This document shows positions 19,077 through 39,031 of a stretch of DNA of 64,000 nt, one piece after another. The stretch comes from Gemmatimonadota bacterium. GTDB taxonomy: Bacteria > Gemmatimonadota > Gemmatimonadetes > Longimicrobiales > Gaopeijiaceae. A program made the translations under genes and the position numbers. The stretch's first letter is position 1; each line of letters begins with the position of its first letter. The stretch spans positions 248,001-312,000 of the forward strand of contig JAJDUP010000012.1 of the NCBI GenBank assembly GCA_022826565.1. The letters run 5' to 3'. A model generated the notes under the pieces. It was given only the letters and a program-made list of their open reading frames with translations. It was not told the origin of the DNA and did not search any database.

Positions 19077-20332
19077 GGCCCCTCTCCTTCCCGGTCGTAC
19101 GCGACCCTTCCGTCCACGTACACCCGGGTCACCAGGGTGCTGACCTCGTACCACGTCCCGTTCAGCACGACGATGTCCGCGTCCTTGCCCACCTCCAGGC
19201 TCCCCACCTGGTCCTCCACCCCGGCGATCGCGGCCGGATTGATTGTCACCGCCTCGAGCGCGTCCTGCTCGGTCATCCCGTAGCGGATCCCGAGCCCGGC
19301 GTTGCCCCGCTGCCACTTGGAGCCCACCACCGGGTCGTCGGTGTGGAAGGTGAAGCGGACGCCCTTCTCGTTCATCAGCGTGCCCGTGGCCATGACCTCG
19401 TCGGACAGCGCGATGCGGGTGAAGAGCGGCATCCCCACCACGTCGATCCCGGCCTCGGCGATGTCGTCGGCGACCTTGTAGGCCTCGGTCGAGTGGTGGA
19501 TCGCGAGGGAGAAGTCGAACTCCTGCGACAGGCGGATGATCGCGAGGATGTCGTGCGCCTGGTGGACGTGGGCGCGGATGCGGTCCTCGCCCGTGAGCAC
19601 CCGGACCACGGCTTCCATGCCGAGGTCGCGCGGCGGGGCCGGGCCCTCCTGGCCGCCTTCCTCCCACGCGTCCCATTTCGCCTGGTACTCCTGCGCCTCG
19701 ATGAACTTGGCGCGCAGCATCGCGGTGACCGCCATGCTGGTGGTCGGCGACTGGTCCGGACGCTTCCGCCCCATCGCGATCTTGAGCCCGCCGCGCTCCT
19801 TCACGATGCGCCCCTCGATCGTAGGCCCCCACGTCTTGACCACGATCGCCTGCCCGCTCGACACCTCGCCGCTCCCGGGCCCGGTGATGACCGTGGTCAC
19901 GCCACCCTTGACCGCGCCGTACCAGAAGGCGTCGTCGGGCGAGAGCACGTCGCGGATGCGGTGCTGCGGCCCGAACCGCACGGGGAATTCGTTGAGGTCG
20001 CGCGAGTCGGCGCCGATGTGGGAGTGGTTGTCCAGCATGCCGGGCATGATGACCATGCCGCTCACGTCGACCACCTCGGCGCCTGCGGGCAGGGCGAGGC
20101 CCGCGCCCGCCGCCGTGATCACGCCGTCCGCGAACACGATCGTGCCGTTCTCGATGGCGGGCCCGGCGGCCGTGTGGATGCGCGCGCCGACCAGCGCGAC
20201 GGGTGCCTCCTGCGCCCTCGCCGCGGTTGCCACGACGGCCGGCGCGAGCCCGCCCACCAGCACGGCGAGCGCCCCATGCGTCGCGGCGACCACCCCACGT
20301 GTCAACTCTGCCTTACATAACGTAAACCGCAC
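19073..20332 (-). CDS. Exported metal-dependent amidohydrolase
   Basis: 419 residues from GTG 20332, chosen because GGGAGG lies 6 bases before it; a GTG at 20353 would add 7 residues and a TTG at 20305 would shorten it. Signal peptide about 1-41 (cleavage near ARAQ). Metal ligands expected of an imidazolonepropionase/dihydroorotase-like enzyme are present: HSH (His103, His105), AHVHQAH, AIHHSTEA, and the Asp in FHTDDP. LGSLEVGKDADIVVL closes the beta-sandwich. A 25-bp repeated element (20313-20337) overlaps its first codons. It leads a translationally coupled pair with the ligand-less paralogue, perhaps followed by the DadA-like gene. Substrate unknown. Confidence 0.88.
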   Translation of the reverse strand: MRFTLCKAELTRGVVAATHGALAVLVGGLAPAVVATAARAQEAPVALVGARIHTAAGPAIENGTIVFADGVITAAGAGLALPAGAEVVDVSGMVIMPGMLDNHSHIGADSRDLNEFPVRFGPQHRIRDVLSPDDAFWYGAVKGGVTTVITGPGSGEVSSGQAIVVKTWGPTIEGRIVKERGGLKIAMGRKRPDQSPTTSMAVTAMLRAKFIEAQEYQAKWDAWEEGGQEGPAPPRDLGMEAVVRVLTGEDRIRAHVHQAHDILAIIRLSQEFDFSLAIHHSTEAYKVADDIAEAGIDVVGMPLFTRIALSDEVMATGTLMNEKGVRFTFHTDDPVVGSKWQRGNAGLGIRYGMTEQDALEAVTINPAAIAGVEDQVGSLEVGKDADIVVLNGTWYEVSTLVTRVYVDGRVAYDREGEGP

Positions 20333-20337
20333 TTTAC
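20313..20337 (+). promoter_or_regulatory. Candidate operator, copy A of a 25-bp element
   Basis: On the minus strand it reads GTAAAGT, then GCGG, then TTTACGTTATGTAA. It matches copy D at 19 of 25 and copy C at 16 of 25 positions without gaps. The outer GTAA half-sites are 21 bp apart, two helical turns. It overlaps the last codon of the dipeptidase gene and the start of the amidohydrolase gene. Confidence 0.6.
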
Positions 20338-21551
20338 ACCTCCCAGATTTCACCCAGCACGCGCTGGAAGTTGCCGCCCAGAATCCCGCGTATGTGATCG
20401 TCCGTGTATCCCCGCCGGATCAGCGCCTCGGTCAGGTCGAACATCCGCTTGGGGTGGTCGACGCCCTCGATGTCGATCTTGTCGCGGAACGCGTACGAGT
20501 CCTTGTAGGCGCTCTTCAGCGCCTCGTACTCGTCGGTCGGCATGTCGTCGTAGCCGTGCAGGTCGACGTCGCTGCCAACGCCCAGGTGCTCGACGCCGAT
20601 CAGGTCGCGAACATGGTCGAAGTGGTCGATGTAATCCTCGATGGTCGTGGGCTCCCTGTCCTTCACGAACATGCGCACGCCCGTCATCCCCATCACGCCA
20701 CCGGTCGCCCCCATGGCCTGGATGGCCTCGTCGGTCTTGGTGCGCGGATGGCCGCCCGACAGCACCCGGCTGTTCGAGTGCGTGAAGAGGACGGGCCGCG
20801 AAGAGACCTCGCAGGCATCCAGCGTCGTGCGGTCGCCCGAGTGCGACACGTCGACCGCCATCCCGATCTCGTTCATGCGCTCGACGATCGCGACGCCGAA
20901 GTCCGAGATGCCACCGTCGACCCGCTCCGTGGCCCCGTTGCCGATCATGTTGCGCGAGTTGTAGGTGAGCTGCGATACCCGCTGTCCGAGCCAGTAGAAC
21001 TGGTTGACGTCGTCGAGGGTGTGGAAGTGGGCCGAGGTCTGCAACCCGATCAGGATCCCCGCGCGCCCCGACCCGTGCACGCTCGCCAGATCCTCCGCCG
21101 AATCGATCCGCACGAAGAGATCGGGCCGCGACGCGATGATCGCGTTGTAGCCGGCCACGAAGAGCAGCGTGTTCTGGTACTGGTCCTCGAAGTCGCGCCC
21201 GCCCACCCCGACCGCAATATGGAAGACGTCGATCTCGGAATCCCGGAACTCCTGCTCCTCCTCGGCTGTCATGCCGCTCAGGTCCGGGCCCCAGCGCTGC
21301 TGAATGGAGCGCGCGATCACCAGCGGCGACAGCATGTCGATCACGAGCGATCCGGTCACCAGGTCGATGCAGCGGGTGGAGTATTCCTGGGGGACGGCAG
21401 TCCGCCCGCGGCCGTGTGCCTGCACGACAGCGCGCCCCCGGTTGATGAACGGAGCGGCCAGCATCAGGCCGGCGGCTCCGGCGGCGGCCTTGAGGACGGT
21501 TCGGCGGGGGAGCGCCACCGCAGACCCCGGAGCTCTGTTTTCTCTAGTCAT
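20334..21551 (-). CDS. Membrane-dipeptidase-like protein (peptidase M19 family), Tat-exported
   Basis: 405 residues. Twin-arginine signal PRRTVLKAAAGAAGLMLAAP near the N-terminus. The M19 barrel is recognisable by VDVSHSGD (His237), LFTHSNSR (His258) and LGVGSDVD. Two usual zinc positions are changed: the N-terminal H-x-D becomes DMLS (72-75), and the bridging Glu of the usual EGG is Gln171 in IGLQTSAHF. So it may bind one metal or have a changed reaction. It is directly upstream of the amidohydrolase pair, separated only by the copy-A element. Confidence 0.82.
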   Translation of the reverse strand: MTRENRAPGSAVALPRRTVLKAAAGAAGLMLAAPFINRGRAVVQAHGRGRTAVPQEYSTRCIDLVTGSLVIDMLSPLVIARSIQQRWGPDLSGMTAEEEQEFRDSEIDVFHIAVGVGGRDFEDQYQNTLLFVAGYNAIIASRPDLFVRIDSAEDLASVHGSGRAGILIGLQTSAHFHTLDDVNQFYWLGQRVSQLTYNSRNMIGNGATERVDGGISDFGVAIVERMNEIGMAVDVSHSGDRTTLDACEVSSRPVLFTHSNSRVLSGGHPRTKTDEAIQAMGATGGVMGMTGVRMFVKDREPTTIEDYIDHFDHVRDLIGVEHLGVGSDVDLHGYDDMPTDEYEALKSAYKDSYAFRDKIDIEGVDHPKRMFDLTEALIRRGYTDDHIRGILGGNFQRVLGEIWEV

Positions 21552-21993
21552 GTGGCTTCTCGTGCACGCTGAGCGTCGTCTTCGGGACTGTCTCCACCTG
21601 CATGTATCTGGCGGAGCGAATCAGCGCACGATCCAGCGTCGCGAGCTGAACGCCGCGCCTCATCGCCAGCTCCAGGTATGCGGCATCGTATGTGCTGAGG
21701 CCGCATTCCCGGGCCAGCAACAGTGTTTCTCGCAGCGCGCGTTCATCGGTCTCGTTGTCGGTAACGATGGCCAGTCTCTTCAGGAGATGGAGATAGGCCG
21801 CCACCTTCGACTTGGCAATCCGCTTCATTCGTTCCGCTCGCACCAGCACGTTGCCGATCTCCAGGTGCCAGATGCCGGGAACCAGGGCCCCCTCCGTGCG
21901 TAGCCGGTCGAGGAGCGCCTCCGTCTCGGGCGTTCCCTGATCCGGGAACAGCCATGTGGCCGCAACCGAGCAGTCGAGTACGAACCCCTTCAT
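21544..21993 (-). CDS. vapC: PIN-domain toxin, VapC family
   Basis: 149 residues, a predicted Mg-dependent ribonuclease. The four acidic positions are visible: Asp7 (FVLDCSV), Glu45 (WHLEIGNVL), Asp103 (STYDAAYLELA) and Asp121 (LATLDRAL). It starts at ATG 21993, overlapping the antitoxin stop by 4 bases, the usual arrangement for antitoxin-first pairs. A longer open frame up to 22257 is only read-through of the antitoxin region. It overlaps the start of the dipeptidase gene by 8 bases. Confidence 0.92.
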   Translation of the reverse strand: MKGFVLDCSVAATWLFPDQGTPETEALLDRLRTEGALVPGIWHLEIGNVLVRAERMKRIAKSKVAAYLHLLKRLAIVTDNETDERALRETLLLARECGLSTYDAAYLELAMRRGVQLATLDRALIRSARYMQVETVPKTTLSVHEKPHD

Positions 21994-22229
21994 GGCCGAC
22001 CTTCGTCCCGCAGATCCTTCCAATCCAGATCGCCAAGCGTGACGCCCTCGCGGATCGACCGAAGCTCCTGGATCGCGTCGGCGACATCCCGTCGATCCTC
22101 CGCTTCGGCCGGGACGAGTCGGGCGACTGGAACGCCACGCCTGGTGATCAGAACTTCCTCGCCCTGAGCTACCTTGTTGAGCAGCGAAGAAAGGTGTGTC
22201 TTCGCTTCGAATGCGCCCACCGTCATCAT
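21990..22229 (-). CDS. Phd/YefM-type antitoxin of the VapC pair
   Basis: 79 residues. The N-terminal MMTVGAFEAKTHLSSLLNKV followed by GEEVLITRRGVPVARLVP is the classic Phd/YefM DNA-binding fold; the C-terminal acidic tail (DVADAIQELRSIREG) would neutralise the toxin. Two adjacent ATGs (22229, 22226) are possible starts. An inverted repeat at 22257-22275, 28 bases upstream, is a good autoregulatory operator. Confidence 0.92.
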   Translation of the reverse strand: MMTVGAFEAKTHLSSLLNKVAQGEEVLITRRGVPVARLVPAEAEDRRDVADAIQELRSIREGVTLGDLDWKDLRDEGRP

Positions 22230-22256
22230 ACTCTTGCTCCCGTTCCGACATGAACA

Positions 22257-22275
22257 ACTAGTTGTATAAACTAGT
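22257..22275. promoter_or_regulatory. Inverted-repeat operator of the toxin-antitoxin operon
   Basis: ACTAGTT (22257-22263) and AACTAGT (22269-22275) are perfect 7-base arms around GTATA. On the minus strand the spacer gives a TATAC that could belong to the -10 region, so antitoxin binding would block transcription. Location and symmetry fit Phd/YefM autoregulation; this is inference. Confidence 0.65.
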
Positions 22276-22368
22276 CTAACTCATGATTGGCGGAATTGGT
22301 AGTCGAGAGAGCGGACAAGGAGGCGGATGTCGATCGGGCTCAAGTGGTGATTCCGGCCCGTAAGCCGA

Positions 22369-24432
22369 CTAGCTCGCCATCCCCCGATACCGGTCGAACC
22401 ACCCCACGATGTATTTGATCTTCTGCATGAAGTGGCTCGGCCGGTCGCGCAGTCCGTGCGACTCGCCCGGCACCTTCACCAGCACCGCCTCGACGCCCTT
22501 CAGTTTCAGCGCCTGGAAGTACTGATCCGATTCGGACATCGGCGTGCGGTAGTCCTCGATGCCGGTCAGGACCATCGTCGGCGTGGTCACGTTGCCCACG
22601 AGCGAGATCGACGAGCGCTCCATGTAGTGCTCGGGGTCCTCCCACGGCATCGCCCGAAACCAGTACTTGGCCACCGTGACCGGGATGTCCGAGCTGACCG
22701 CGAAGCTGTACCAGTTGATCACCGGGTACAGCACCGCCGCCGCGTTGTAGCGGTCCGTCTTCCCGATCGACCACGACGATAGCACGCCCCCGCCGCTCCC
22801 GCCGGTTATGTAAAGCTGCTCCGGATCCACGTACCCCAGTTCGATCACCGCGTCCACGCCCGAGTCCAGGTCGAAGTAGTCGTTGCCGGGGTATGAGTGG
22901 TGGATGAGGTTGCCGAATTCCTCGCCGTAGGATGTGCTCCCCCTCGGGTTGGTATAGAGCACGACGTAGCCTGCGGAAGCCATCGATTGCTTCTCGATGT
23001 CGAACCTGTCGCCATAGTTCGCGAACGGTCCGCCGTGGATTTCCAGGATGAGCGGATAGCGGCGCGCCGGGTCGAATCCCGGCGGCTTGATGATCCACCC
23101 ATGGATGTCCAGGCCATCGTGCGACGACGGCCACCACAACTCCTCGACCTCGCCGAGCGTCTTGTGCGCCAGGACATCCTCGTTCACGCTCGTGACGACG
23201 CGCACGCCCCGGTCGGCCCCGACCGCCACCTCGCTGAGCATGGTGGGCGTCGAGACCGTGTAGGCGAAGGTTCCGCCCGGCCCCACCGAAAAGCTCCCTC
23301 CACCGTAGGCCGACCCGCTGCCACCCATGTTCCCGGCCACGACATGCACCTCGTCGCTGCCGGGCTCCACGTAGGCGACCTTGGTGTTGCCCATGTCCGC
23401 GTACGAGAAATAGAGGCGATCCGAATCCGGCGACCACGCCAGCCCGCCCACCGTGCGGTCCAGCTGCGCCGCCACCTGCCGCGCGCCCGATCCGTCCCGG
23501 TTCGCCATGTACAGCCCCGTCACCTGGTAGCCCTGATAGCGGTCGTCGAACCCGGTGTAGGCAATCCAGCGTCCGTCGGGTGACACCGCCACGCCGCCGT
23601 CCGGTCCCTTCCGGTCGGTCAGCGCCCGGATTTCGCCGTCCAGGGACACTTCGTAGACCTCGGTGTTGCGGTTTTCCAGCTCCCAGTCCGGGTGCCGGTT
23701 CGCCTCGATCAGCACGGACTCGCCGTCGGGCGACCACACCGGCCGGCCCCGTCCCGACCGCCCCACGTATCCCCCGTGATGAAAGCTCCCGCTGGTGATC
23801 TGCCGCGGCGTTCCCCCCTCGGACGGCATCACGAAGAGGTGCGTGAAGCCGTGCTCGAGGTCGCCCGTGCCGTCGAAGCGGTGGACCAGTTCGTGGATCA
23901 CGCGCGCCGGTTCGGCCCACTCCGCGCCCTCGGGCGGCTCCGGCATGGAGATCAGCTGCATGCCCGCTTCCGGCACGAAGGACGAGAAGACGATCCGGCT
24001 GCCGTCGGGCGACCAGGCCGGCACCCGCGGCGCTTCCACCAGGTTCGTGATCTGATTGGTCGCCCCGGTGTCCATCCACCGCGTGTGCAGCTGCGCCGAC
24101 CCCGTCATGTCCGAGATGTAGAGGAGCCGGTTGCCGTCCGGCGACCACCGCGGCCAGCTGTCCGACTGCTTCCCCGAGGTCAGCGGGCGGAGGTCCGCAC
24201 CACCGCGATCCATGATCCACAGGTTCGAGTAGTTGCGATCGGTTTGCGCGTCCGACCACTGGCGCACGAAGACGATCTGCGAGCCGTCCGGCGAAATCTG
24301 TGGGTCGCTCACGAACTCGAGGTCGAAGACGTCCTCGGCGGTGAGCACGTCCATCCCCTGCTGGGCATTCAGGGCGAGGGGGGTCGTCAGCGCCAGCGCG
24401 GCCGACGCGAACAGGGAGAATCTCTTCATCAC
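22369..24432 (-). CDS. S9-family prolyl oligopeptidase-like peptidase, exported
   Basis: 687 residues. Sec signal peptide 1-23 (cleavage near LNAQQ). The first 400 or so residues are WD40-like PD40 repeats (SPDGSQIVFVRQ, WSPDGNRLLYIS, WSPDGSRIVFSS, SPDGRWIAYTG), the propeller that gates the active site. The C-terminal alpha/beta hydrolase carries Ser546 in GGSGGG, Asp627 in IEDYRTP and His659 in ESHGLR. HGGPFANYGD is the usual oxyanion-region element. This is the dipeptidyl/acylaminoacyl peptidase type that cleaves oligopeptides. The downstream side is the short gap to the antitoxin operator. Confidence 0.93.
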   Translation of the reverse strand: MMKRFSLFASAALALTTPLALNAQQGMDVLTAEDVFDLEFVSDPQISPDGSQIVFVRQWSDAQTDRNYSNLWIMDRGGADLRPLTSGKQSDSWPRWSPDGNRLLYISDMTGSAQLHTRWMDTGATNQITNLVEAPRVPAWSPDGSRIVFSSFVPEAGMQLISMPEPPEGAEWAEPARVIHELVHRFDGTGDLEHGFTHLFVMPSEGGTPRQITSGSFHHGGYVGRSGRGRPVWSPDGESVLIEANRHPDWELENRNTEVYEVSLDGEIRALTDRKGPDGGVAVSPDGRWIAYTGFDDRYQGYQVTGLYMANRDGSGARQVAAQLDRTVGGLAWSPDSDRLYFSYADMGNTKVAYVEPGSDEVHVVAGNMGGSGSAYGGGSFSVGPGGTFAYTVSTPTMLSEVAVGADRGVRVVTSVNEDVLAHKTLGEVEELWWPSSHDGLDIHGWIIKPPGFDPARRYPLILEIHGGPFANYGDRFDIEKQSMASAGYVVLYTNPRGSTSYGEEFGNLIHHSYPGNDYFDLDSGVDAVIELGYVDPEQLYITGGSGGGVLSSWSIGKTDRYNAAAVLYPVINWYSFAVSSDIPVTVAKYWFRAMPWEDPEHYMERSSISLVGNVTTPTMVLTGIEDYRTPMSESDQYFQALKLKGVEAVLVKVPGESHGLRDRPSHFMQKIKYIVGWFDRYRGMAS

Positions 24433-24433
24433 A

Positions 24434-25324
24434 CTATCCCGGTATGCGGGAGATCACGTACCTGCCGTGCTCCTCTCCCGTGATGAACTGGGTGACATCG
24501 TAGGGGCCGGTCAGCAGGCGGGAAAACGCGTGCCTGGTCGAATGGCGCCAGCGGACCGCCTCATCGAAGCAGCGGGCCTCGACGGTCTCGATGTCCTTCG
24601 GTATCAGTACTTCAACGACCTTCACGTCGTCTTTCAGCTTCGGCTCGCCCCCGCCCGGCCGCACGACCGCGCACGGCTCGCACCGCCCGGGCGCCGACCC
24701 CGGCGCGAAAGCCCTTCCCGCCTCGCCGGCGCCCCCTCGCAGGTCCCACCTCACGATGAACCTGTCAGTGCCCAGCTGGTGGAGTTCGCTGTCCGAGACT
24801 CCGTACATGTCCGGGACGAATTCGTCCACCGCCGCGCCCAGCAGGTTGAGGTTGAGATGCGCGTTGCGGGCGACGAGCGGGTCGAAGGTCCAGTACATGG
24901 TGACCACGCCCGCGGCCCGCAGTTCCTCCCGCTGCGCGAGCTTGAGCCGTTTGCCGATCCCCTGGTTGCGGGCCTCGGGACGCACGGCCAGCATGTGCGA
25001 CCAGTGGGCCAGCTCTCCCCGCCGGAACCCGGTCATGCCGTAGACCAGACCCAGGAGCTCTCCGGCCGGACCAAAGGCGCCGGTCGCCACCCCGCCCATC
25101 TTGGCGGTGATCTGCATCATGCTCACGGGCACGACCTCGGAGAAGGAGTGGCCCCAGGTGTCCCGCTGCAGGTCCACGCACGCATCGTACTCGCCGCGAG
25201 TCCTGACGGACCGGATCTCGATATCGGGCCGATCGTCGGTTGCCGGGCCGGCAGAGCGAGTTGGAGGAGTAGCCATGACACCCCGGGGGAAAGGACTGTT
25301 CATCGGCAACTTCTGTACGCTCAT
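24434..25324 (-). CDS. GNAT-family N-acetyltransferase-like protein
   Basis: 296 residues. A GNAT core is visible: WSHMLAVRPEARNQGIGKRLKLAQRE carries motif A with the acetyl-CoA loop (NQGIGKR), preceded by a beta strand GELLGLVYGMTGF. The C-terminal hundred residues (about 195-296) are an extension seen in the larger uncharacterised GNAT group rather than in simple acetyltransferases. Start at 25324 is supported by GGGGG about 4 bases upstream; ATGs at 25303 and 25276 are alternatives. The stop lies 1 base before the S9 peptidase start, so the two are cotranscribed. Substrate unknown. Confidence 0.83.
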   Translation of the reverse strand: MSVQKLPMNSPFPRGVMATPPTRSAGPATDDRPDIEIRSVRTRGEYDACVDLQRDTWGHSFSEVVPVSMMQITAKMGGVATGAFGPAGELLGLVYGMTGFRRGELAHWSHMLAVRPEARNQGIGKRLKLAQREELRAAGVVTMYWTFDPLVARNAHLNLNLLGAAVDEFVPDMYGVSDSELHQLGTDRFIVRWDLRGGAGEAGRAFAPGSAPGRCEPCAVVRPGGGEPKLKDDVKVVEVLIPKDIETVEARCFDEAVRWRHSTRHAFSRLLTGPYDVTQFITGEEHGRYVISRIPG

Positions 25325-25343
25325 GCTACCCCCTGAGGGCGGG

Positions 25344-25357
25344 ATACCGCAAGGTAT
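25344..25357. promoter_or_regulatory. Short inverted repeat between GNAT and GntR genes
   Basis: ATACC-GCAA-GGTAT, perfect 5-base arms, sits in the 197-base divergent intergenic region. GntR/FCD regulators often bind short palindromes containing GTATAC-like cores, and GGTATAC overlaps the right arm. It is a candidate site for the adjacent regulator; evidence is positional only. Confidence 0.35.
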
Positions 25358-25521
25358 ACAGACTTATCGACAGAAATGCGGTACATTCTGTGTTACATTT
25401 CAAGGTTAGGTTCGATCCTGTCTCGCCAACTGGCGGATCGCAAACGGAGCACAGAGGATCTACAGGCGGAGCGCGAAACGCAATGGTTCCGTCGCACTAG
25501 TCGCAATTGAATGGAGAATCA

Positions 25522-26220: not shown

Positions 26221-26242
26221 GGATCGTAGCCTGAGAGGACCA

Positions 26243-27781: not shown

Positions 27782-27851
27782 GTTCCGGCCTGACCGCGAC
27801 GTAGCTGGCACGCAAGGGAGCCGCCGCATTCCACGCAGGAGGCGTTGTACC

Positions 27852-30277: not shown

Positions 30278-30289
30278 GACCCGAGAGAC

Positions 30290-30949
30290 ATGCAGCTGAG
30301 ATTCGCCGAAGAGGTCATGCTCCTTTTGCTGGATGACGAGGGCGAGAGGTTTTTGCGGGTACCCGACTGGTCGCTCAGGTACGCCCTGGGCGGTGGAGTG
30401 CTGATGGATCTGGCGTTCGAGGACCGGATCGACACCGATCTCGAGAAGCTCGTCCTCGTCGACTCGACGCCGCTGGGGGATGACCTCCTCGACCCCACGC
30501 TGGCCGAGATCGCCGACAGCGAGGGCACCCACAACGCGCGCTTCTGGGTGGAGCGCGCCGCCGCGCGTTCGGACGAAATCCGCGAGGCCGCCATCGACAG
30601 CCTGGTCGGGCGCGGTATCCTGGAGCGCAAGGAGGACCGCTTCCTGTGGGTCTTCCGCTCCCGCCGCTATCCCGTCCTCGACGACGGCACCGCCGAGCGC
30701 GAGGTGAAGTTGCGGCTGATGGAACTGCTCTTCAGCGACATGATCCCGACGCCGCGCGACGTGGTGATCATCTGCCTCGCCGACGCGTGCGGGATCTTTG
30801 CGGAGCTGCTCTCGCGGCGCGAACTGCAGCAGGTGCTGCCGCGCATCCAGTTCCTCCGCCAGATGGACCTTATCGGCCAGGCGGTGACCGCGGCCGTGTG
30901 GGACATCGAGGTTTCTCTCGCCCAAGCCATCCGGCCCCACTTCGGCTAG
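30290..30949 (+). CDS. GPP34-family protein (Golgi phosphoprotein 3-like)
   Basis: 219 residues. It starts MQLRFAEEVMLLLLDDEGERF, the first helix of the GPP34 fold, followed by YALGGGVLMDLAFEDRI, LVDSTPLGDDLLD, and IDSLVGRGILERKEDRFLWVF, the helix-loop that in eukaryotic GOLPH3 helps bind phosphatidylinositol 4-phosphate. Bacterial members occur in several phyla and their role is unknown. It follows the oxidase by 12 bases and ends just before the mod promoter. Confidence 0.87.
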   Translation: MQLRFAEEVMLLLLDDEGERFLRVPDWSLRYALGGGVLMDLAFEDRIDTDLEKLVLVDSTPLGDDLLDPTLAEIADSEGTHNARFWVERAAARSDEIREAAIDSLVGRGILERKEDRFLWVFRSRRYPVLDDGTAEREVKLRLMELLFSDMIPTPRDVVIICLADACGIFAELLSRRELQQVLPRIQFLRQMDLIGQAVTAAVWDIEVSLAQAIRPHFG

Positions 30950-30966
30950 CGGCAGCCCCCGCGCTC

Positions 30967-30994
30967 TTGTCAAGTAGGCTTTACATTATATAAT
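30967..30994 (+). promoter_or_regulatory. Strong sigma70-type promoter of the mod-like operon
   Basis: TTGTCA (30967-30972), 16-base spacer, TATAAT (30989-30994). The -10 box is inside the perfect palindrome at 30980-30999, so a protein bound there would exclude RNA polymerase. About 50 bases separate it from the regulator's ATG. Confidence 0.7.
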
Positions 30995-31005
30995 GTAAAC
31001 CTTAC
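30980..31005. promoter_or_regulatory. Operator: perfect 20-bp palindrome and copy C of the 25-bp element
   Basis: TTTACATTAT followed by ATAATGTAAA (30980-30999) is a perfect 20-bp palindrome. Bases 30981-31005 also make up a copy of the 25-bp element: its reverse complement agrees with copy D at 21 of 25 positions. It covers the -10 box, so repression of the XRE/PBP-mod operon, possibly by its own first product, is likely. Confidence 0.72.
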
Positions 31006-31044
31006 ACTTTTCCGCCCACGGATCAGGACAGGAGACCTGCACTC

Positions 31045-32154
31045 ATGACGGACAACCAGCTCAGGAACCGCGTCAGACAGCACCGCAAGGCCGAGGGGCT
31101 TTCCCAACACGCGCTCGCCGAAGCCATCGGCGTTTCACGACAGGCGATCCACGCCATCGAGAACGGCGCCCAGGTGCCGTCGACCAGCCTCGGCCTGCGC
31201 ATGGCACGCGTCTTCGGTTGCGACGTGGAGGACCTGTTCAGCCTCGCTTCGGATCCGGGGATTCGGGCCCGCCTCGCCCCCGCCCCCCCGGCGCTCGCCG
31301 CGGGTTCGCGGGTCGCGCTCGGCATGGTCGGCGAGCGCTGGGTGGCCCACCGCCTCCCCTCGCACGGGATGACCGCCGCCGACGGCATCCTGACCGGCGA
31401 GGCTGACGGCGCGGACGCCGAGGTCATGCCGCTGGCCGGTCTCAGCCAGCTGAAACGCAATGTCCTCGTCGCCGGGTGCGCACCCCTTCTCGGCGCGGTC
31501 TCGCACCGGGTGGGCCGGCGCTTCAACGACGCCCGCGTGACCTGGCTGCGCGCCGGGAGCGGCAGGGCGATGAAGATGCTCTCCGCGGGGCTCGTTCACG
31601 TCGCGGGGCTTCACCTGTCGTCGGGCGGGGGAGAGAACGGCACCGCCGCGGCGGCCCGGCGGGCGCTGCCGGGCCAGACCCTGCTCGTCGTCAACCTGAC
31701 ACGCTGGCGGCAGGGACTGGTGGTGGCGGCCGGGAACCCCAGGGGAATCGGCGGCGCCGAAGACCTGGCCGCACCCGGCCTGCGGATCGTGCGGCGCGAG
31801 GAGGGCTCCGCCGCGCAGGCCCTGGCCGCCAGAGTCACGGAGGCCGCGGGGAGCGTGCTGCCCGCCGACGGTCCCATGGCCCAGGGCCACGCCGAGGTCG
31901 CTCGCATGATTCGCTGGGGCGCGGCGGACGTCGGGGTCGCCATCGAGAGCGCGGCCCTGGCCGAAGGGCTCGATTTCGTACCGCTCACGGAGGAGAGCTT
32001 CGACCTCGTGGTGTCCGAGAAGCTCGCGAAGAAGGCGCCCGTCTCGCGCCTGCTCGACGCCCTGGACGACCCGGCGTTCCGGACCGAAGTCAGCCATCTG
32101 CCCGGTTACGACGGATCGATGAGCGGGCAGGTCACGACCGTCGAAGCCGCGTGA
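31045..32154 (+). CDS. XRE-type regulator with PBP-like substrate-binding domain
   Basis: 369 residues. The N-terminal HTH is of the Cro/C1 type (NRVRQHRKAEGLSQHALAEAIGVSRQAIHAIENG, about 7-40). From about residue 90 to 350 a periplasmic-binding-protein-like fold follows, without a signal peptide: LKRNVLVAGCAPLLG, VTWLRAGSGRAMKML, AEVARMIRWGAADVGVAIES. This architecture is used by oxyanion-responsive regulators next to molybdate/tungstate transporters. It is the first gene of the operon, overlaps modA by 4 bases, and its promoter carries the palindrome it may bind. Ligand identity (molybdate or tungstate) is inferred from neighbours. Confidence 0.88.
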   Translation: MTDNQLRNRVRQHRKAEGLSQHALAEAIGVSRQAIHAIENGAQVPSTSLGLRMARVFGCDVEDLFSLASDPGIRARLAPAPPALAAGSRVALGMVGERWVAHRLPSHGMTAADGILTGEADGADAEVMPLAGLSQLKRNVLVAGCAPLLGAVSHRVGRRFNDARVTWLRAGSGRAMKMLSAGLVHVAGLHLSSGGGENGTAAAARRALPGQTLLVVNLTRWRQGLVVAAGNPRGIGGAEDLAAPGLRIVRREEGSAAQALAARVTEAAGSVLPADGPMAQGHAEVARMIRWGAADVGVAIESAALAEGLDFVPLTEESFDLVVSEKLAKKAPVSRLLDALDDPAFRTEVSHLPGYDGSMSGQVTTVEAA

Positions 32155-32939
32155 CGACCCGGGCCCGCGCGGTCGCGGCAATTCTGGCGCTTGCCGTCGC
32201 CGGCTGCCATCCCGGCGGGCCCGAACGGCAGCCTCTGCGCATCTTCGCCGCGTCGTCGCTCACCGACGCGTTCCGGGAGATGGCGGGGGCCTTCGAGGGC
32301 GCCCACCCGGACACCGAGGTCGTCCTCGTCTTCGCGGGCAGCCAGATCCTGCGCCTGCAGATCGAGCAGGGCGCCCCGGCCGACGTCTTCGCCTCGGCCA
32401 ACCCGCAACACATGGACGCGCTGGTGGATGGCGGCCTGGTGAGCGGGGAGCGGGTGCTTGCGCGCAACGAACTGGTGGTGATCGTGCCGCCGGCCAACCC
32501 CGCCGGAATCGAGTCCTTCGCCGACCTGGTCCGCGCCGAGCGCATCGTGATCGGGACGCCGAACGTGCCGGTGGGGGCATATGCGCGGGAGGCGCTGAGG
32601 CGTGTGGGCGCGGAGGCCGGCGGCGGCGCGTTCGCGCAGGCCGTGCTGGGCCGGGTCGTCTCCGAGGAGAGCAGCGTGCGCCTGGTGCGCGCCAAGGTGG
32701 AGCTGGGCGAGGCCGACGCCGCGATCGTGTATCGGACCGACGCGGTGCCCGGGCGGGTGCTGACCGTGCAGGTGCCGCCCCGGGCCAACGTGCGGGCGCG
32801 CTACCTGCTCGGGATGGTGGAAGGCGCGGAGAACGCCGCCGGGGCGGAGCGATGGGCCGAATTCGCCGCTTCGCCGGAAGGGCGGCGCATCCTCTCCCGC
32901 CACGGCTTCCTCGCGGAAACGACTGCCACGGCGCAGTAG
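32151..32939 (+). CDS. modA: Molybdate ABC transporter, substrate-binding lipoprotein
   Basis: 262 residues from GTG 32151, overlapping the regulator's stop (GTGA). Signal with lipobox LAVAGC. The binding-protein core shows [16 protein letters not shown] (oxyanion-contacting Ser pair), [41 protein letters not shown] and [12 protein letters not shown], all standard ModA positions. It captures molybdate (or tungstate) outside the inner membrane. A much longer upstream open frame is only overlap with the regulator. Confidence 0.93.
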
Positions 32940-32946
32940 CGGCCCC

Positions 32947-33816
32947 GTGGAAGACGCCGGCAGGGCGGTGAAGCGCCGCCGTTCTCTCGCGGAGCGCGCC
33001 CCGTTCCTGGCCGCCATCCCCATGCTGGCCATCCTCGCGGTGCCCCTGATCGCGCTGGCGGGAGCCTCCTCACCCGGCGACATCGCCGCGGGCGCCCGCC
33101 ACCCCCTCTTCGCCCCCGCCCTCTGGCTGAGCACCCGCACCACCCTCGTCAGCCTGGCCGCCATGGTCGTGCTGGGCACCCCCCTGGCCTGGTGGATGGC
33201 GTCCCGCCCGGGGCGCGGTTCCCGCGTCGTCGAGACCCTGGTCGACCTCCCCATCGTGGTGCCGCCCGCGGTCATGGGCATCGCGCTGCTGGAGGCCTTC
33301 GGACGCAACGGCCTCTTCGGTCCCGCCCTTTCCGCACTGGGGCTCCAGATCCCCTTCACCACCACCGCTGTCGTCGCGGCGCAGGTCGTCGTCTCGGCTC
33401 CCTTCTACATCCAGGCCGCCGCCGCGGCCTTCCGGCGCGTTGACGAGGACCTCCTCATCGTGGCGCGCACCCTGGGCCATTCCCCGGCGAGCGCCTTCTT
33501 CCGGGTCGCGGTCCCCCTCGCGCTGCCCGGCATGGTCGCGGGCGCCGCCCTCGCCTGGGCCCGGGCGCTGGGGGAGTTCGGCGCCACCCTCCTCTTCGCG
33601 GGCAACTTCACGGGCTCGACCCAGACGATGCCGCTCGCCATCTACACCGCCCTCGAGTCCGATGCGCGGGTCGCGGTCGCGCTGGCCCTCGTCCTCGTCG
33701 CGGCGAGCGCCCTGCTGCTGGTGCCCCTGCGCGCCGTTCCCGCCCTGATCGCACGCCGCTTGGGCGGGGGGCGCGGCGGGGGGCGGCCGCCGCTCCAGGG
33801 CTTCGCGGGTTCCTGA
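32947..33816 (+). CDS. modB: Molybdate ABC transporter permease
   Basis: 289 residues from GTG 32947, 7 bases after modA. About six membrane helices. The coupling-helix EAA loop reads [29 protein letters not shown], and [17 protein letters not shown] is a ModB signature. The C-terminal tail is Gly/Arg-rich. It partners ModA and ModC. Confidence 0.94.
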
Positions 33817-33819
33817 GCC

Positions 33820-34545
33820 ATGCAGTGGAGCGTGGAGGTCAAAGCGCGCGCGGGCGGTTTCCACCTGGACGTGGGCATCGAGGGGGACCGCGCGCCGGTG
33901 GTCGTCATCGGGCCCAACGGATCCGGCAAGACGACCCTGCTGCGCATCATCGCGGGGGCCTATCGTCCTCGGGCGGGACGGATTCGCTTCGGGGACCGCA
34001 CGCTCTTCGACTCGGCAGCCGGGATCGACCTCGCGCCCGAAGAGCGCCGCGTCGGCTACGTGCCGCAGGGCTATGGGCTCTTCCCCCACCTCCCGGTCAT
34101 CGACAACGTGGCTTTCGGGCTCGCCGGCGGACCCCGGCGCGTGCCCGGTACGGAGCGCCGCGGCACCGCCGCGGAGATTCTCGCCGAGATGGAATGCGGC
34201 CACCTGGCCCGGCGCTACCCCGCGACGCTGTCGGGCGGCGAGAAGCAGCGGGTCGCCCTGGCTCGCGCCCTGCTGCCCGCACCCGAGATGCTCCTCCTGG
34301 ACGAACCGCTGGCGGCGATGGACGTCGCCGCGCGGCGGGGCCTTCGCGCCTGGCTGACCCGCCGGCTGGCCTGCCGCGGAGCGCCCGCGATCGTGGTCAC
34401 GCACGACGTGCGCGATGTGCACGCGCTCGGATCGCCGGTGGTGGTCGCGCTCGAGGGCGGCACGGTGGTGCAGAGCGGGCCGGCGGCGGCCCTGGCGGCC
34501 CGGCCGGAGACGGACTTCGTCGCGGAGTTCTTCGGGGCGGCGTAA
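33820..34545 (+). CDS. modC: Molybdate ABC transporter ATP-binding protein, short form
   Basis: 241 residues. Walker A GPNGSGKTT (about 31-39), Q-loop VPQGYGLFPHLPV, signature LSGGEKQRVALARALL, Walker B LLLDEPLAAMD, and H-loop VVTHD. It stops soon after the ATPase domain, so it lacks the C-terminal TOBE (molybdate-binding) domain of full-length ModC; sensing may be left to the PBP-like regulator. It ends 7 bases before the convergent barrel gene. Confidence 0.93.
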   Translation: MQWSVEVKARAGGFHLDVGIEGDRAPVVVIGPNGSGKTTLLRIIAGAYRPRAGRIRFGDRTLFDSAAGIDLAPEERRVGYVPQGYGLFPHLPVIDNVAFGLAGGPRRVPGTERRGTAAEILAEMECGHLARRYPATLSGGEKQRVALARALLPAPEMLLLDEPLAAMDVAARRGLRAWLTRRLACRGAPAIVVTHDVRDVHALGSPVVVALEGGTVVQSGPAAALAARPETDFVAEFFGAA

Positions 34546-34552
34546 CGCCCGC

Positions 34553-35275
34553 CTACCGGTCCTCCGCCGACCCCCGCCTGAAGATGTACCTCGCCGTAAA
34601 GGACAGAACACCGTTGTACAGCTCGTTGCCGAGCACCGAGGCCTCGACCGCGCGGATTCCCGCCTCGTAGCGCGCGCCGAACGCGAGGCCGCCCCATTCG
34701 AGCTCGCCCCCGACCAGCACCCCCAGGTCCACCGAACGGTGTCCGATTTCCTCGATGTCGTCGCACCCCTCCTCGGCCAGTTCGCAGCGCAGCAATGCCC
34801 CCACCGACATGCCGCCGAACAGGTGGGGCCGCAGATGGTCGCCCAGCGAGGTTCGCAGTTGCGCGAGCAGGGGGAGCTGGATGTACGGAACCCGGAAGAG
34901 CTTGGTGGGACCGGTGCGCGGGTCGCCCAGCAGGGTCTCGACCCGGGCGCCCTTCTCGGAGAAGTACAGTTCGGACCTCAGCGAGAACATCTCGCCGAAC
35001 GCGAGCTCGCCGACGCCGCCGAAGAGGAACGTGGTGCGCGCGACGGCGTCCCTGGAGCCCCCGCCGGTGAAGCTGGCCCGGCTGAAGCCGGTCATCACAC
35101 CCACGGCTGGCTGCGCCGACGCCGCCGAAAGGGGAGCCGCGAGCAGTATCGCGCCTACCAGAATCGGGCCGTGGAGCTGGCGGCGGGTGACCCGGCGGCG
35201 GTTCGTGCGCACCCGGCAGCCGCCTTCACCGTAGTCGGTGCGACGCGGGAGTTCGTCACGAACTGCTGTTGCCAT
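34553..35275 (-). CDS. Small outer-membrane beta-barrel protein (PorT-like)
   Basis: 240 residues. A basic N-terminus of about 35 residues precedes the hydrophobic signal (PILVGAILLAAPLSAASA), so the true start may be internal. The mature part alternates in the way of an 8-strand barrel: AVGVMTGFSRASF, FGGVGELAFGEMFSLRSELYFSEKGAR, VPYIQLPLLAQLR, PHLFGGMSVGALL, ELYNGVLSFTARYIF. It is closely similar to the protein at 36226, including the Cys pair region ending in DDIEEI. Function unknown. Confidence 0.82.
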   Translation of the reverse strand: MATAVRDELPRRTDYGEGGCRVRTNRRRVTRRQLHGPILVGAILLAAPLSAASAQPAVGVMTGFSRASFTGGGSRDAVARTTFLFGGVGELAFGEMFSLRSELYFSEKGARVETLLGDPRTGPTKLFRVPYIQLPLLAQLRTSLGDHLRPHLFGGMSVGALLRCELAEEGCDDIEEIGHRSVDLGVLVGGELEWGGLAFGARYEAGIRAVEASVLGNELYNGVLSFTARYIFRRGSAEDR

Positions 35276-35371
35276 CTCATCTCCGGTTGGGTGTCACCAA
35301 ATGTAGCCGCTCGGACTATTCTGTCGAAAAGACGCTTGCGCGGCGAACGGTGCGACCGGCATTCTCCCGCA

Positions 35372-36181
35372 ATGCAAACGAAACCGCACCGGAGCGCCCC
35401 GACGACGACGGGTGACGTGTCGACCTCGGCGAACGGACACACCCGGGATGAGGCGTTTGCCGAAGTGCTGCAACAGACTCGAGTCGATCTCGCCGCGGTT
35501 CATCGAATCACGGTGCTCGAAGGGCTGCACGAGGGAACCTGGAACCACTTCAGTGCCGCCGTTCCCGGGCGCCCCGGATCCCTGCTGCTGTCCCCCGGCC
35601 AGACGCACTTCTCCCGCGTCACCGCATCCAGCCTGCTTATGACCGACCCCGGGGGCGACGTCGTCGAGGGGACCGGCATCCCCAATATCAGCGCATGGGC
35701 CATACACGCCCCGCTGTACCGGGCACGCCCCGACATCGGCTGCGCGCTGCATGTGCACTCGCCGTACATGACGGCGCTTGCCTCGACGGAAGGATGGCGG
35801 CTCGACACTCGCGGCGGACAGCTCGCCGGGGTCTTTCACGGCAACGTGGCCTACTTCGACTACGAAGGAATCGTGACCGAGGACGAAGAGGGCGAGCGGA
35901 TGGCCGAGGCGCTGGGCGACAAGAGTACCCTGATCATGGCCAATCACGGAGCGCTGGTGGTCGCGGCGTCGATCGAGGTGGCCATGCTGCACCTTGTATC
36001 GCTGGAGCGCGCCTGCATGACCGAGTGGATGGTGAGGGCCGGCGGGGGCCGCATCCGGCAGGTGCCGCTCGAGGTGGCCGAGGCCGTGGCCGCGACCGCG
36101 CCCGACGGATTCGGCGAACGCGGGTATCTGGACGGAATGAAGGCGGTGCTGGACCACCAGGGGCAGGACTACGCCGCCTGA
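35372..36181 (+). CDS. Class II aldolase/adducin-family protein
   Basis: 269 residues from ATG 35372; a much longer open frame upstream overlaps modC and the barrel gene and is not used. The zinc site is visible: HVHSPY (His127, His129) and NHG (His192), with EGTWNHFSAAVPGRPGSLLLSPG in the phosphate-binding position. Members are fuculose-phosphate-type aldolases, epimerases or decarboxylases; without a clear phosphate-specific residue the reaction stays open. It is flanked by two paralogous barrel genes on the other strand. Confidence 0.87.
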   Translation: MQTKPHRSAPTTTGDVSTSANGHTRDEAFAEVLQQTRVDLAAVHRITVLEGLHEGTWNHFSAAVPGRPGSLLLSPGQTHFSRVTASSLLMTDPGGDVVEGTGIPNISAWAIHAPLYRARPDIGCALHVHSPYMTALASTEGWRLDTRGGQLAGVFHGNVAYFDYEGIVTEDEEGERMAEALGDKSTLIMANHGALVVAASIEVAMLHLVSLERACMTEWMVRAGGGRIRQVPLEVAEAVAATAPDGFGERGYLDGMKAVLDHQGQDYAA

Positions 36182-36225
36182 GCTGCACGGACAAGGTCGA
36201 TGGACGCGCGCCGAGCGCCGGTCCG

Positions 36226-36846
36226 TCAGCCGCGCAACATGTACCTGACCGTGAAGGACACCACCCCGTTGTAGATCTCGTTCCCGGTGGTTGAAGCCTC
36301 GACCGCACGCACGCCGGCTTCGTAGCGCGCGCCGACGCCAAGCCGCTGCCACGCGACTTCGACGCCCGCCACGGCGCCGAAGTCCAGGCCGCGCTGGTCG
36401 ATCTCCTCGATGTCGGTGCAATCCTGGCTTCCGAACGTGCACCCGAGCAGGGCACCGACCGACAGTCCACCGAACAGACGCGGGCGTGCCGAGCTGTCGC
36501 CGGACGTTTGCAGTTGGGCGAGAACCGGTATCTGGACGTACCGCAACCCGAAGGTCTTGATCGGTCCGTCCGCGGGATCGCCCGCCGGTGTATTGACCCG
36601 CGCGCCCTTGGCCGAGAAATGGAGTTCCGGCCGGATCGCAAGCCTCTCGTTGACCGGAATCTCGGCCACTGCCCCGACCAGGAACGCGGTGCGCCTCGCG
36701 ACGTCTACCGCTCCGCTTCCGGAAAAGGTGGACCGGCTGAGACCTCCGATGACCCCGACGGAGGGTTGGGCAGGGGCACCGTGGGGCGCGGCGGCCACAA
36801 GCAGAACGGCCACGAGCAGGCCGGGCGACAGCTTCCGGCGCCTCAC
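36226..36846 (-). CDS. Small outer-membrane beta-barrel protein (PorT-like)
   Basis: 206 residues from GTG 36846, which overlaps the stop of the CocE-type gene (GTGA on the minus strand); a longer frame to 37734 runs inside that gene. Signal peptide about 1-25 (cleavage near APAQP). Mature sequence parallels 34553-35275 from SVGVIGGLSRSTF to NGVVSFTVRYML, with the same EEI motif and Cys-containing loop (CTFGSQDCTDIEEI). Probably coupled to the CocE-type hydrolase. Confidence 0.84.
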   Translation of the reverse strand: MRRRKLSPGLLVAVLLVAAAPHGAPAQPSVGVIGGLSRSTFSGSGAVDVARRTAFLVGAVAEIPVNERLAIRPELHFSAKGARVNTPAGDPADGPIKTFGLRYVQIPVLAQLQTSGDSSARPRLFGGLSVGALLGCTFGSQDCTDIEEIDQRGLDFGAVAGVEVAWQRLGVGARYEAGVRAVEASTTGNEIYNGVVSFTVRYMLRG

Positions 36847-39026
36847 TTCGCCGCTCCCGGAATCACTGGCAACTGCAAATGCGATCCCCCTTCGCCGCCC
36901 CGGTGAACCGTGATCGTGGGCACGATGTTGTCGTCGGCGTCCGGCCGGTTTTGCGGTGACAGCTTCGGGTGCAGGTCGAAGACGGGCCAGTCGGCCGCCG
37001 CGACCGACAGGCGGATGCTGTGTCCGGCCCTGAAGAGCCACGACGTCGGGTACAGCGAGGTCGTGACGCGAACCACCGCGCCGTCGGCGAAGACGCGGTC
37101 GGCATAGTCGGCCTCGCGGAAGCCGTGCCAGGGCAGGTCGGGCTTCACGTCGATCCCCGTGTTGCCGGGGATCAGGAGGTCGTTGTCGACCAGGCGGTTG
37201 AAACCGGCGCGGTGCTGGTACTCCGTCACGAGGATCGCGTTGCCTGCCGGATCGACGTCTTCGAGGTAGAAATAGAGGTCGCCGTAGTCGGCGGTGGACG
37301 AGACCGAGACGCTGACAACGGGATGACCCGTCACCTCGGTGTCCGCCTCGAGCGGCGCGCTTGTATAGGTGAGGACCTGCCCGGCCTTGTCCGTGCGGTA
37401 GGGCAGGTCGTCGGGTACGCCGAACATCTGCTGGCGGGAATGGCCGAACGACGGCGCGTTGAAGGGCGGCTTTCCCTTCATCGCGTTCGCGACCGAGATC
37501 TGTGAGGCGTCGAGCGGCGGGCCGAACGAGGCGTCGTGCGTGAAGTCGGCGGTGTAGTCGTCGCTTCCGGGTCCGCCCGGTTCCCGCGCGAGCGCGCCCG
37601 CGCCGGCGAGGTAGAACCGTGTGGGGACCTCCCGTTCCAGCGGCCATGACTCTTCCGCCCGCCACCCCTCGTTCTGGACAAAGATGTGCACCGGGGGTTC
37701 GTGCTCGATGCCATTCCTGATCCCTTTCAACCAACGGTCATACCACCGCAGCGCCTCGCCCAGGTAGACCGGCGTGTAGACGTTTTCCCGTTCGGGGTCC
37801 GCACCGATCCCCGTCGATGCCGCAGGCGAAATCCCCTGGTGATACATCGGCCAGGCGATGACCCGCGACGCATTCGACTCCTCGAGGGTCGCGAACACCT
37901 CGAAGGAGCTGCGCGCAAACGCGTCCCACCAGCCGGCGAAGTTGTAGACCGCCACGCCCGATTCGATGATGTCGGGAACCAGCGACCAGTTGACGCCCGG
38001 TGCGGTGAGCCCGTCGGACTCGCGCGCGCTGTCGAAGAAGCGGACCGACCGGATGCTGGTCACCGCATCGAAGTTGCCGGGCGCGCCATCCGGATGCGCG
38101 ATGTGTTCCATCGTCGCGTTGAAGTACGCGTGCTCCGTGCGCTCGACACCATCGGGATACTGCGGCGGATTCGCGGGATCCACCGGCCAGGGATAGTCGT
38201 CGGTGAACCAGGTGTCGCCGTCCGCGTCCACGGGGATCTCGTCCAGCAGCTCGCCGTCGCCGTCCTCGTCGAGCACCGGGGTCACAGGGGGAATGGGGAA
38301 GGTCGGAAACGTGTTGTTGTGGTTGATGAAGTCGGTCATTGCCGTCCACATCTCGGTGAACGCGTAGCTGAAGATGCCACCGGGTTGCACGAGCATCCCG
38401 TCCCAGCCGGTGTGCACGGGCACGATCGCCTTGAGCGCCTCAGGTCCCGCCGCCGCCGTGGCAAACTGTGACCAGCCCTCGTAGGAGCCGCCGAACATGC
38501 CGACGTTGCCGTCGCTCCACAGCTGGGCCGCGATCCAGTCGACGATCGTGCCGGCGTCCTCGACCATCATGGGCGTCATCACGTCGTTCCAGCCGAACGA
38601 CGCGCCGCTGCCCCGCATGTCGGCCGCTACATAGGCGTACCCACGCGACAGGAAGAACTCGTACGGCGCGACCGGGACCTCGCCGGTTTCGGGGTTGATC
38701 GAGGTGCGGTGATACGGGGTGTAGCGGAAGATCACCGGAAACGCCGTCGCCGCCTCGCCCTCGCCGGTGTACCCGGTGGGCAGGACGACGTCGACGGCCA
38801 GCCGCACGCCGTCCGACGCGGTCACGAAATGAGACGACCGCTCATGGCCCGTCCATTCGACCGGGCTGGTGCCCTCGAGCGACAGCGGGCTCGTCTCGAC
38901 GTCGATCGTCGGCGCATCGCCGCCGCCGCAAGCGGTCACGCCCAGAAGCAACGCACACACGGCGGCCCGCCAGACCCCTTTGGTCCATTGCGTAAAGTTA
39001 ACTTTACATAATGTAATGTTCTCCAT
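36843..39026 (-). CDS. CocE/NonD-family hydrolase (S15-like), lipoprotein
   Basis: 727 residues from ATG 39026, supported by GGGGTGAG 4 bases upstream. The signal region is unusual: about 18 residues precede the hydrophobic stretch ending in LGVTAC (lipoprotein Cys), because codons 4-12 overlap the 25-bp copy-D element. The hydrolase core has TASDGVRLAVDVVLP, FRYTPYHRT, ADMRGSGASFG, nucleophile GGSYEGW and a C-terminal jelly-roll with HSIRLSVAAADWPVFD. An insertion with Asp-rich EDGDGELLDEIPVDADGDTW resembles a calcium-binding loop. Paralogue of the 10635 gene. Confidence 0.9.
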   Translation of the reverse strand: MENITLCKVNFTQWTKGVWRAAVCALLLGVTACGGGDAPTIDVETSPLSLEGTSPVEWTGHERSSHFVTASDGVRLAVDVVLPTGYTGEGEAATAFPVIFRYTPYHRTSINPETGEVPVAPYEFFLSRGYAYVAADMRGSGASFGWNDVMTPMMVEDAGTIVDWIAAQLWSDGNVGMFGGSYEGWSQFATAAAGPEALKAIVPVHTGWDGMLVQPGGIFSYAFTEMWTAMTDFINHNNTFPTFPIPPVTPVLDEDGDGELLDEIPVDADGDTWFTDDYPWPVDPANPPQYPDGVERTEHAYFNATMEHIAHPDGAPGNFDAVTSIRSVRFFDSARESDGLTAPGVNWSLVPDIIESGVAVYNFAGWWDAFARSSFEVFATLEESNASRVIAWPMYHQGISPAASTGIGADPERENVYTPVYLGEALRWYDRWLKGIRNGIEHEPPVHIFVQNEGWRAEESWPLEREVPTRFYLAGAGALAREPGGPGSDDYTADFTHDASFGPPLDASQISVANAMKGKPPFNAPSFGHSRQQMFGVPDDLPYRTDKAGQVLTYTSAPLEADTEVTGHPVVSVSVSSTADYGDLYFYLEDVDPAGNAILVTEYQHRAGFNRLVDNDLLIPGNTGIDVKPDLPWHGFREADYADRVFADGAVVRVTTSLYPTSWLFRAGHSIRLSVAAADWPVFDLHPKLSPQNRPDADDNIVPTITVHRGGEGGSHLQLPVIPGAAK
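38992..39016 (+). promoter_or_regulatory. Candidate operator, copy D of the 25-bp element
   Basis: Plus strand GTAAAGT, then TAAC, then TTTACATAATGTAA. It contains a perfect 16-bp palindrome GTAAAGTT/AACTTTAC (38992-39007) overlapping the half-palindrome TTACATAATGTAA. It lies inside codons 4-12 of the CocE-type gene, so control could be by blocking transcription just downstream of initiation or by an mRNA hairpin. Confidence 0.6.
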
Positions 39027-39031
39027 ACATC

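Follow-up and report, generated by a model that had tools for sequence, protein, structure and literature searches.

What is the function of a short DNA element that recurs at three operons within one stretch of a Gemmatimonadota genome, and which protein recognizes it? The stretch, hereafter the window, comprises 64,000 nucleotides of contig JAJDUP010000012.1 (positions 248001-312000 of contig 39 in the genome denoted G000, which has 4,393,182 bp in 61 contigs). An earlier note on this DNA had described a 25-bp element at a pair of amidohydrolase genes, at an operon encoding an XRE-type regulator with a PBP-like (periplasmic binding protein-like) domain, XRE-PBP, and at a CocE-type hydrolase gene, and had proposed a single regulon joining oxyanion transport with exported hydrolases. 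The element is part of a protein site made of two dyads that is conserved genus-wide, with one constant copy, of those tested, at the xre-pbp-modABC operon, and its copies are not an ordinary regulon. The best explanation, which we regard as reasonably probable from sequence comparison, is that the sites are the operator of XRE-PBP, an autorepressor of the molybdate type with an originally local role, and that amplification of this operator within one genus would now let the protein bind DNA globally.

The three 25-mers lie at 20313-20337, 30981-31005 and 38992-39016 and share 16, 19 or 21 of 25 positions in pairwise comparison. The coordinates and identities agree with the earlier note. A search of the window for the 25-mer pattern with up to three mismatches gave seven overlapping matches, every one of them falling at one of the three places, and 100 shuffled versions of the window contained none, so the repeats are not due to chance. 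The element is thus real and repeated as first described, but the description was incomplete: the 25-mer is one side of a 39-bp palindrome with four half-sites, TGTMA-N8-TKACATWATGTMA-N8-TKACA, and the 25-bp unit is an off-centre view of this palindrome of two dyads. Each dyad spans 18 bp (TGTMA-N8-TKACA), and the two centres are 21 bp apart.

The whole G000 genome contains 54 forward and 54 reverse matches to the 25-mer pattern and 99 forward and 99 reverse matches to the 39-bp pattern (with A at the centre), and the reversed control patterns gave none in either case. For the anatomy of the sites, 72 stretches fetched around listed places were combined with the window (652,969 bases) and scanned with a weight matrix. 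The scan yielded 89 places, 88 of them above 25 bits, and reversed sequence gave nothing above 10 bits and two places above 8. Of these places, 85 were among the matches listed and four came from the fetched stretches; five element copies (L467-L471) were left out. The dyads form 86 pairs at the 21-bp spacing. Smaller counts at 5, 8, 13, 16 and 26 bp are read as mostly register echoes of the inner palindrome, and lone dyads were no commoner than in the reversed control. Whether taken inside the 18-mers or over the whole 39-mer, paired columns showed about the complementarity that composition predicts (among the pairs tested the largest z was 2.6), and the strongest dependence between bases was found for the two adjacent bases at each dyad centre. 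The lack of base-pair covariation points to four independent protein half-sites, and the architecture fits such an arrangement, most simply as two dimers on one face of the helix.

The distribution of the site is sharply bounded. The 39-bp pattern was sought in 98 genomes. It is abundant in 22 of the 23 that belong to the genus, with 29-253 forward matches each, and absent from the remaining one, G009. Only eight of the 75 genomes outside the genus had any match, and none of these had more than one on a strand. When named contigs were scanned, the matches listed included many metagenome-assembled genomes of Gemmatimonadota and single matches in assorted unrelated genomes, the latter read as chance. 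In a midpoint-rooted GyrA tree, G009 is sister to the 18 sampled site-bearing members (support 0.999 for the 18 and 0.62 for the node joining G009). It has neither sites nor XRE-PBP, yet has kept modB at 77% identity. All site-bearing members of the genus encode XRE-PBP itself, one of them (G010) only in part. Outside the genus, 15 genomes encode the protein over most of its length at 36-61% identity, and further matches are partial or mainly to the helix-turn-helix (HTH) region.

The DNA upstream of xre-pbp was compared in 21 genus and 15 outside genomes. A site precedes the gene in the own genome and in 21 of 21 relatives within the genus (43-68 bits), that is, in all 22 site-bearing genomes. 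One outside genome, G034, was unreadable, as its contig ends at the xre-pbp gene. With spacings of 19-24 bp allowed, a double dyad was present before xre-pbp in 10 of the 14 outside genomes with readable upstream DNA (G047, G033 with a 22-bp spacing, G036, G037, G051, G038, G043, G053, G045 and G039), with score sums of 15.6-46.0 versus a control maximum of 8.9 among 72 scores; the fixed 21-bp matrix placed five of the same 14 above 25 bits. The whole genomes of these outside operator-bearing relatives hold 0 or 1 match. The G053 site has three mismatches to the pattern, consistent with the single reverse match in that genome. A site at xre-pbp with 0 or 1 match elsewhere is the pattern expected of a self-regulator. 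The earlier note had named the XRE/PBP-like protein as the natural candidate regulator, and the presence of the site at its gene within and beyond the genus upholds that choice; XRE-PBP as the probable binder of the sites is well supported by these comparisons.

XRE-PBP (31045..32154, + strand, 369 aa) was characterized through Pfam, PDB relatives, an AlphaFold model and fold matches. It carries an HTH_3 domain (PF01381, 51.3 bits against a cut-off of 23), whose sequence relatives in the PDB include CylR2, the 434 and P22 repressors and SinR, and a PBP_like domain. The model has a mean pLDDT (predicted local distance difference test) of 89.7, and its fold matches comprise PBP type 2 proteins, including phosphate, phosphonate and molybdenum-transporter binding proteins, as well as LysR effector domains. 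The gene is followed on the same strand by those for a modA-type molybdate-binding protein (32151..32939; TIGR01256, 149.6 bits, cut-off 62.5), a modB-type permease (32947..33816; TIGR02141, 211 bits, cut-off 182.6) and a modC-like ATPase (33820..34545), for which modC is the best model although its score remains below the NCBIfam cut-off (TIGR02142, 194.7 bits, cut-off 285.05). The proposed link to oxyanion transport therefore stands, with xre-pbp heading a modABC operon. In 20 genomes, modA, modB and modC all lie downstream of xre-pbp in 14 and none in G058; one or two were found in five, of which two had downstream stretches shorter than 1 kb. Searches of one open-access library gave no description of a regulator family of modABC combining HTH and PF12727 (PBP_like).

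Site B (30968..31006, no strand assigned, 55 bits), the copy at the xre-pbp promoter, is the probable autoregulatory operator. A sigma-70-like promoter, TTGTCA-16-TATAAT, is predicted at 30967..30994 (+ strand; 11/12, a consensus match only) on half-sites 1 and 3 of this site. XRE-PBP thus has two features of XRE-family autorepressors, an HTH_3 domain and an operator over its own promoter. As the operator covers the -35 and -10 hexamers, its anatomy suggests that the protein represses its own operon, which we consider probable.

The remaining copies do not behave as the targets of a conventional regulator. Genes were called with our own codon-usage script, and start positions are correspondingly uncertain. 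The genes flanking the 89 places are in tandem in 53 cases, convergent in 20 and divergent in 13, three places being at the end of a stretch; seven of the 89 sites fall within a called gene. Gaps of at least 45 bp that hold a site (n=72) comprise 41 tandem, 19 convergent and 12 divergent ones, versus 113, 33 and 49 among the 195 gaps without a site, a background taken from the same stretches. In tandem gaps the site tends to follow the stop codon of the preceding gene at a short distance (median 49 bp). The concentration in promoter-type gaps expected of an ordinary transcription-factor regulon is thus lacking. A single regulon of three operons, as first suggested, is not supported, given 99 matches per strand, 19 of 72 site-bearing gaps between convergent genes, and a site before gyrA in only two of the 19 genus gyrA loci (G000 and G006).

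The gyrA contrast shows that at least that position is not fixed, and of the two genes compared across the genus it is xre-pbp that has the constant site. The expectation that a genuine motif would be conserved upstream of orthologues accordingly holds for xre-pbp and fails for gyrA. Some of the other targets were also compared: of 103 sites located on other contigs, 11 fall in the gap of a fetched own site. Site positions turn over between the more distant members of the genus.

What survives of the link to exported hydrolases is a modest tendency of the sites to precede genes for exported proteins. By our own heuristic, a signal-peptide-like start was seen in 30 of 52 genes downstream of a site (-45 to +200 bp) versus 60 of 176 first genes without one (Fisher P 0.003). 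Of the proteins encoded downstream of a site, 8 of 53 have Pfam Amidohydro_3, compared with 1 of 55 controls, an enrichment noticed post hoc with a control of 55 of 75 out of 176 genes in which one false open reading frame was replaced by modC. Exported proteins, in particular amidohydrolases, are thus modestly enriched downstream of the sites. Molybdenum enzymes were absent from the first 25 of 80 families of site targets.

Comparison with the near relative G006 shows that the half-sites of the copies are conserved. Of 66 site loci, 37 were used; 24 were without a fetched own stretch, four had no own site at the place, and one further locus was dropped (homology missing on both sides, or duplicate). 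In the 37 orthologous pairs, differences affected 27 of 740 half-site positions, 126 of 592 positions in the N8 spacers and 407 of 4101 in the intergenic flanks. The effect is carried by A/T positions, changed in 12 of 551 cases in half-sites versus 171 of 1380 in intergenic flanks (P 1e-14). It is found in tandem gaps (6/341 versus 83/880) and divergent gaps (0/59 versus 21/200), and also in convergent gaps (6/151 versus 67/300, P 1e-7), where the site cannot control the initiation of the flanking genes; the half-sites are thus conserved there without such control. The spacers themselves change faster than the flanks, with 62 of 245 spacer G/C positions differing versus 236 of 2721 intergenic ones. 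Because the difference at fourfold A/T codon positions reaches 41-43%, we invoke no special mechanism for the fast spacers, although their G/C rate stays high. Spacer inversion was considered as a source of this divergence and rejected, only two of the 37 pairs aligning better when inverted, by one position each, with one tie.

Some of the copies are part of a larger repeat. Similar flanks were recognized at 6 of 88 own sites, all within a repeat of ~249 bp with terminal inverted repeats and the site near its middle (a corresponding flank-cluster count of 16/34 in G021 is inflated by overlapping loci). Sequence comparison places one copy at L112:3418-3665 (own C40) and others in L075, L061, L101 and L106. 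In two copies the arms of the terminal inverted repeats measure 46 nt, with 72% complementarity, and 28 nt, with 75%. When one copy was used as query, the own genome gave 32 full or partial matches, and the ten of these that were fetched all contain a site (31 to 62 bits). Random stretches of G021 held three repeat copies, two with a site and one without. The repeat was matched in all 23 genomes of the genus and five outside. In G009 the one match among those listed covers query positions 136-221, beside the operator at about 83-122. These observations suggest that the ~249-bp element may have existed first and acquired the operator later. With its terminal inverted repeats, shortness and many copies, the repeat has the marks of a miniature inverted-repeat transposable element (MITE) and is a candidate mobile-type, MITE-like element. 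In G021, three tandem copies of the 249-bp unit carry an identical site each (C1:207279, 207528 and 207777). The site 42 bp before gyrA (L109:3485; own C39:360085), with mobile-repeat remnants alongside in G000 and G006, is apparently a recent gain at an essential gene.

Taken together, the data suggest a model in which each 18-bp dyad would be bound by one HTH dimer, with two helical turns (21 bp) between the two dimers and both on the same face of the DNA. In the ancestral role, the operator over the -35 and -10 elements of the xre-pbp-modABC promoter would allow XRE-PBP to repress the operon that encodes it, the signal presumably being an oxyanion (molybdate or tungstate) bound by the PBP-type domain. 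In one clade of one Gemmatimonadota genus the operator is present in tens to hundreds of copies, part of them in the ~249-bp mobile-type repeat, and this amplification would have turned XRE-PBP into a lineage-specific global DNA-binding protein. It probably represses a subset of genes in which those for exported proteins are over-represented; at convergent gaps its role may be structural, or may consist in blocking transcription. A bolder form of the model holds that the molybdate-uptake autorepressor became a genome-wide DNA-organizing or global regulator because a small mobile element captured and scattered its operator, with copies under selection even between convergent genes. We put this forward tentatively, as a possibility that is more doubtful than not.

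Several observations weigh against the model. Because G009 branches as sister to the site-bearing clade, its lack of both protein and sites counts as a single event. The highest site number, 253 forward matches in a genome of 2.8 Mb, is that of G010, yet its XRE-PBP frame is shortened to 261 aa and much of the PBP domain is missing. No operator was found upstream of xre-pbp in G054, G058, G061 and G082, 4 of the 14 readable outside genomes. Promoter-type gaps are not favoured by the sites when the 72 gaps with and the 195 without a site are compared, and G/C positions of the half-sites (15 of 189 changed, allowed A/C exchange included) show no extra conservation over intergenic ones. Molybdate is presumably the ligand of XRE-PBP, on the basis of operon context and fold only.

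The same shortened G010 protein, alongside the highest site number, and the many other regulators encoded in these genomes would suit a scenario in which a different DNA-binding protein of the genus occupies the sites and xre-pbp is merely one of its targets. Such a scenario would leave unexplained why outside genera have the site at xre-pbp with so few matches elsewhere, and why within the genus the protein is absent where the sites are absent; we consider it unlikely. It is also improbable, somewhat more so, that the sites are selfish repeats, passengers of mobile elements with neither regulatory nor structural function. The ~249-bp repeat does account for some copies, and the wide variation in copy number between species and the turnover of positions would be natural for passengers, but recognizably similar flanks occur at only a small minority of the own sites, and the A/T positions of half-sites are kept while the spacers diverge.

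Sites that organize the chromosome in nucleoid occlusion or as macrodomains, for which those of Noc, SlmA and MatP are the comparison systems, would likewise be intergenic, genome-wide, and present and conserved in convergent gaps. Site density is also uneven: on the closed chromosome of G021 the stretch at about 1.0-2.05 Mb is poor in sites (among the matches listed, by eye). This sparse stretch holds dnaA, but in G001 the sites are dense near dnaA (again among the matches listed and by eye), and no consistent origin or terminus rule emerges from these two genomes. For the comparison, dnaA was located in G000, G001, G006 and G021, and GC skew was read at 20 points along G021. Counts moreover differ about ninefold between congeners, and an organizing role of this kind appears very unlikely. 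Least weight of all is given to the palindrome being an RNA or single-stranded DNA hairpin (terminator, attenuator or cruciform). Its nested palindromy and the nearness of tandem-gap sites to the upstream stop codon are what such a structure would show, but the covariation test, with paired columns about as complementary as composition predicts, led us to reject a hairpin or attenuator reading, and neither the tested element copy nor the window matched an Rfam family.

The other two sites of the window have hydrolase genes as neighbours. Site A (20300..20338, no strand assigned, 40 bits) lies between the 3' end of an M19 dipeptidase gene and the start of an amidohydrolase gene, and a site is also present in the same gap of G006. 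The exported amidohydrolase downstream of it (19073..20293, - strand) was assigned to Pfam Amidohydro_1, and the peptidase M19 gene whose 3' end abuts it (20334..21518, - strand) was identified by domain search. Site C (38991..39029, no strand assigned, 56 bits) overlaps the predicted start codon of an S15/CocE-type hydrolase gene (36843..39026, - strand; Pfam Peptidase_S15 and PepX_C) and would be partly translated should this start be correct. Directly upstream of the xre-pbp-modABC operon, positions 30290-30949 encode a protein with a GPP34 (Golgi phosphoprotein 3-like) domain.

The genomes compared here form a natural series in which the operator is amplified: other genera have essentially one site, the regulator-less sister G009 has none, and the remaining members of the genus have roughly 30 to 250. 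This series makes it testable how a local repressor becomes global, whether mobile repeats drive the process in bacteria, and what purpose a conserved repressor site serves where genes converge. The family of XRE-PBP regulators of modABC can, in addition, now be assigned a probable operator.

Molybdate-responsive repression of modABC is known from ModE. XRE-PBP resembles it as a modABC-associated regulator, presumably with an oxyanion, but consists of HTH_3 and PBP_like domains, with no ModE-type domain among its six Pfam families. For XRE/Cro-cI repressors, binding of dimers to dyads and paired operators is the usual mode; XRE-PBP shares the HTH_3 domain with 434, P22 c2, SinR and CylR2 and differs from them in its PBP-type sensor domain and in a fixed dyad pair present at about 100 chromosomal places. 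Repetitive extragenic palindromic (REP) elements and bacterial interspersed mosaic elements (BIME) similarly occur as many short extragenic palindromes per genome, but the sites described here have four independent protein half-sites without covariation, lack the hairpin-forming base-paired arms of REP, and have an identified, probably autoregulatory source copy. The closest precedent we have seen is the integration host factor (IHF) site of the Correia elements of Neisseria, mobile repeats in which a small element with terminal inverted repeats spreads a protein-binding site genome-wide and can alter a neighbouring gene (PMC10969869, PMC2229807). Neither 'transcription factor' nor 'repressor' occurs in the text of the Correia review. 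The Correia case concerns a general nucleoid protein, IHF, whereas the site amplified here probably belongs to a pathway-specific autorepressor, and most of its copies lie outside a recognizable element.

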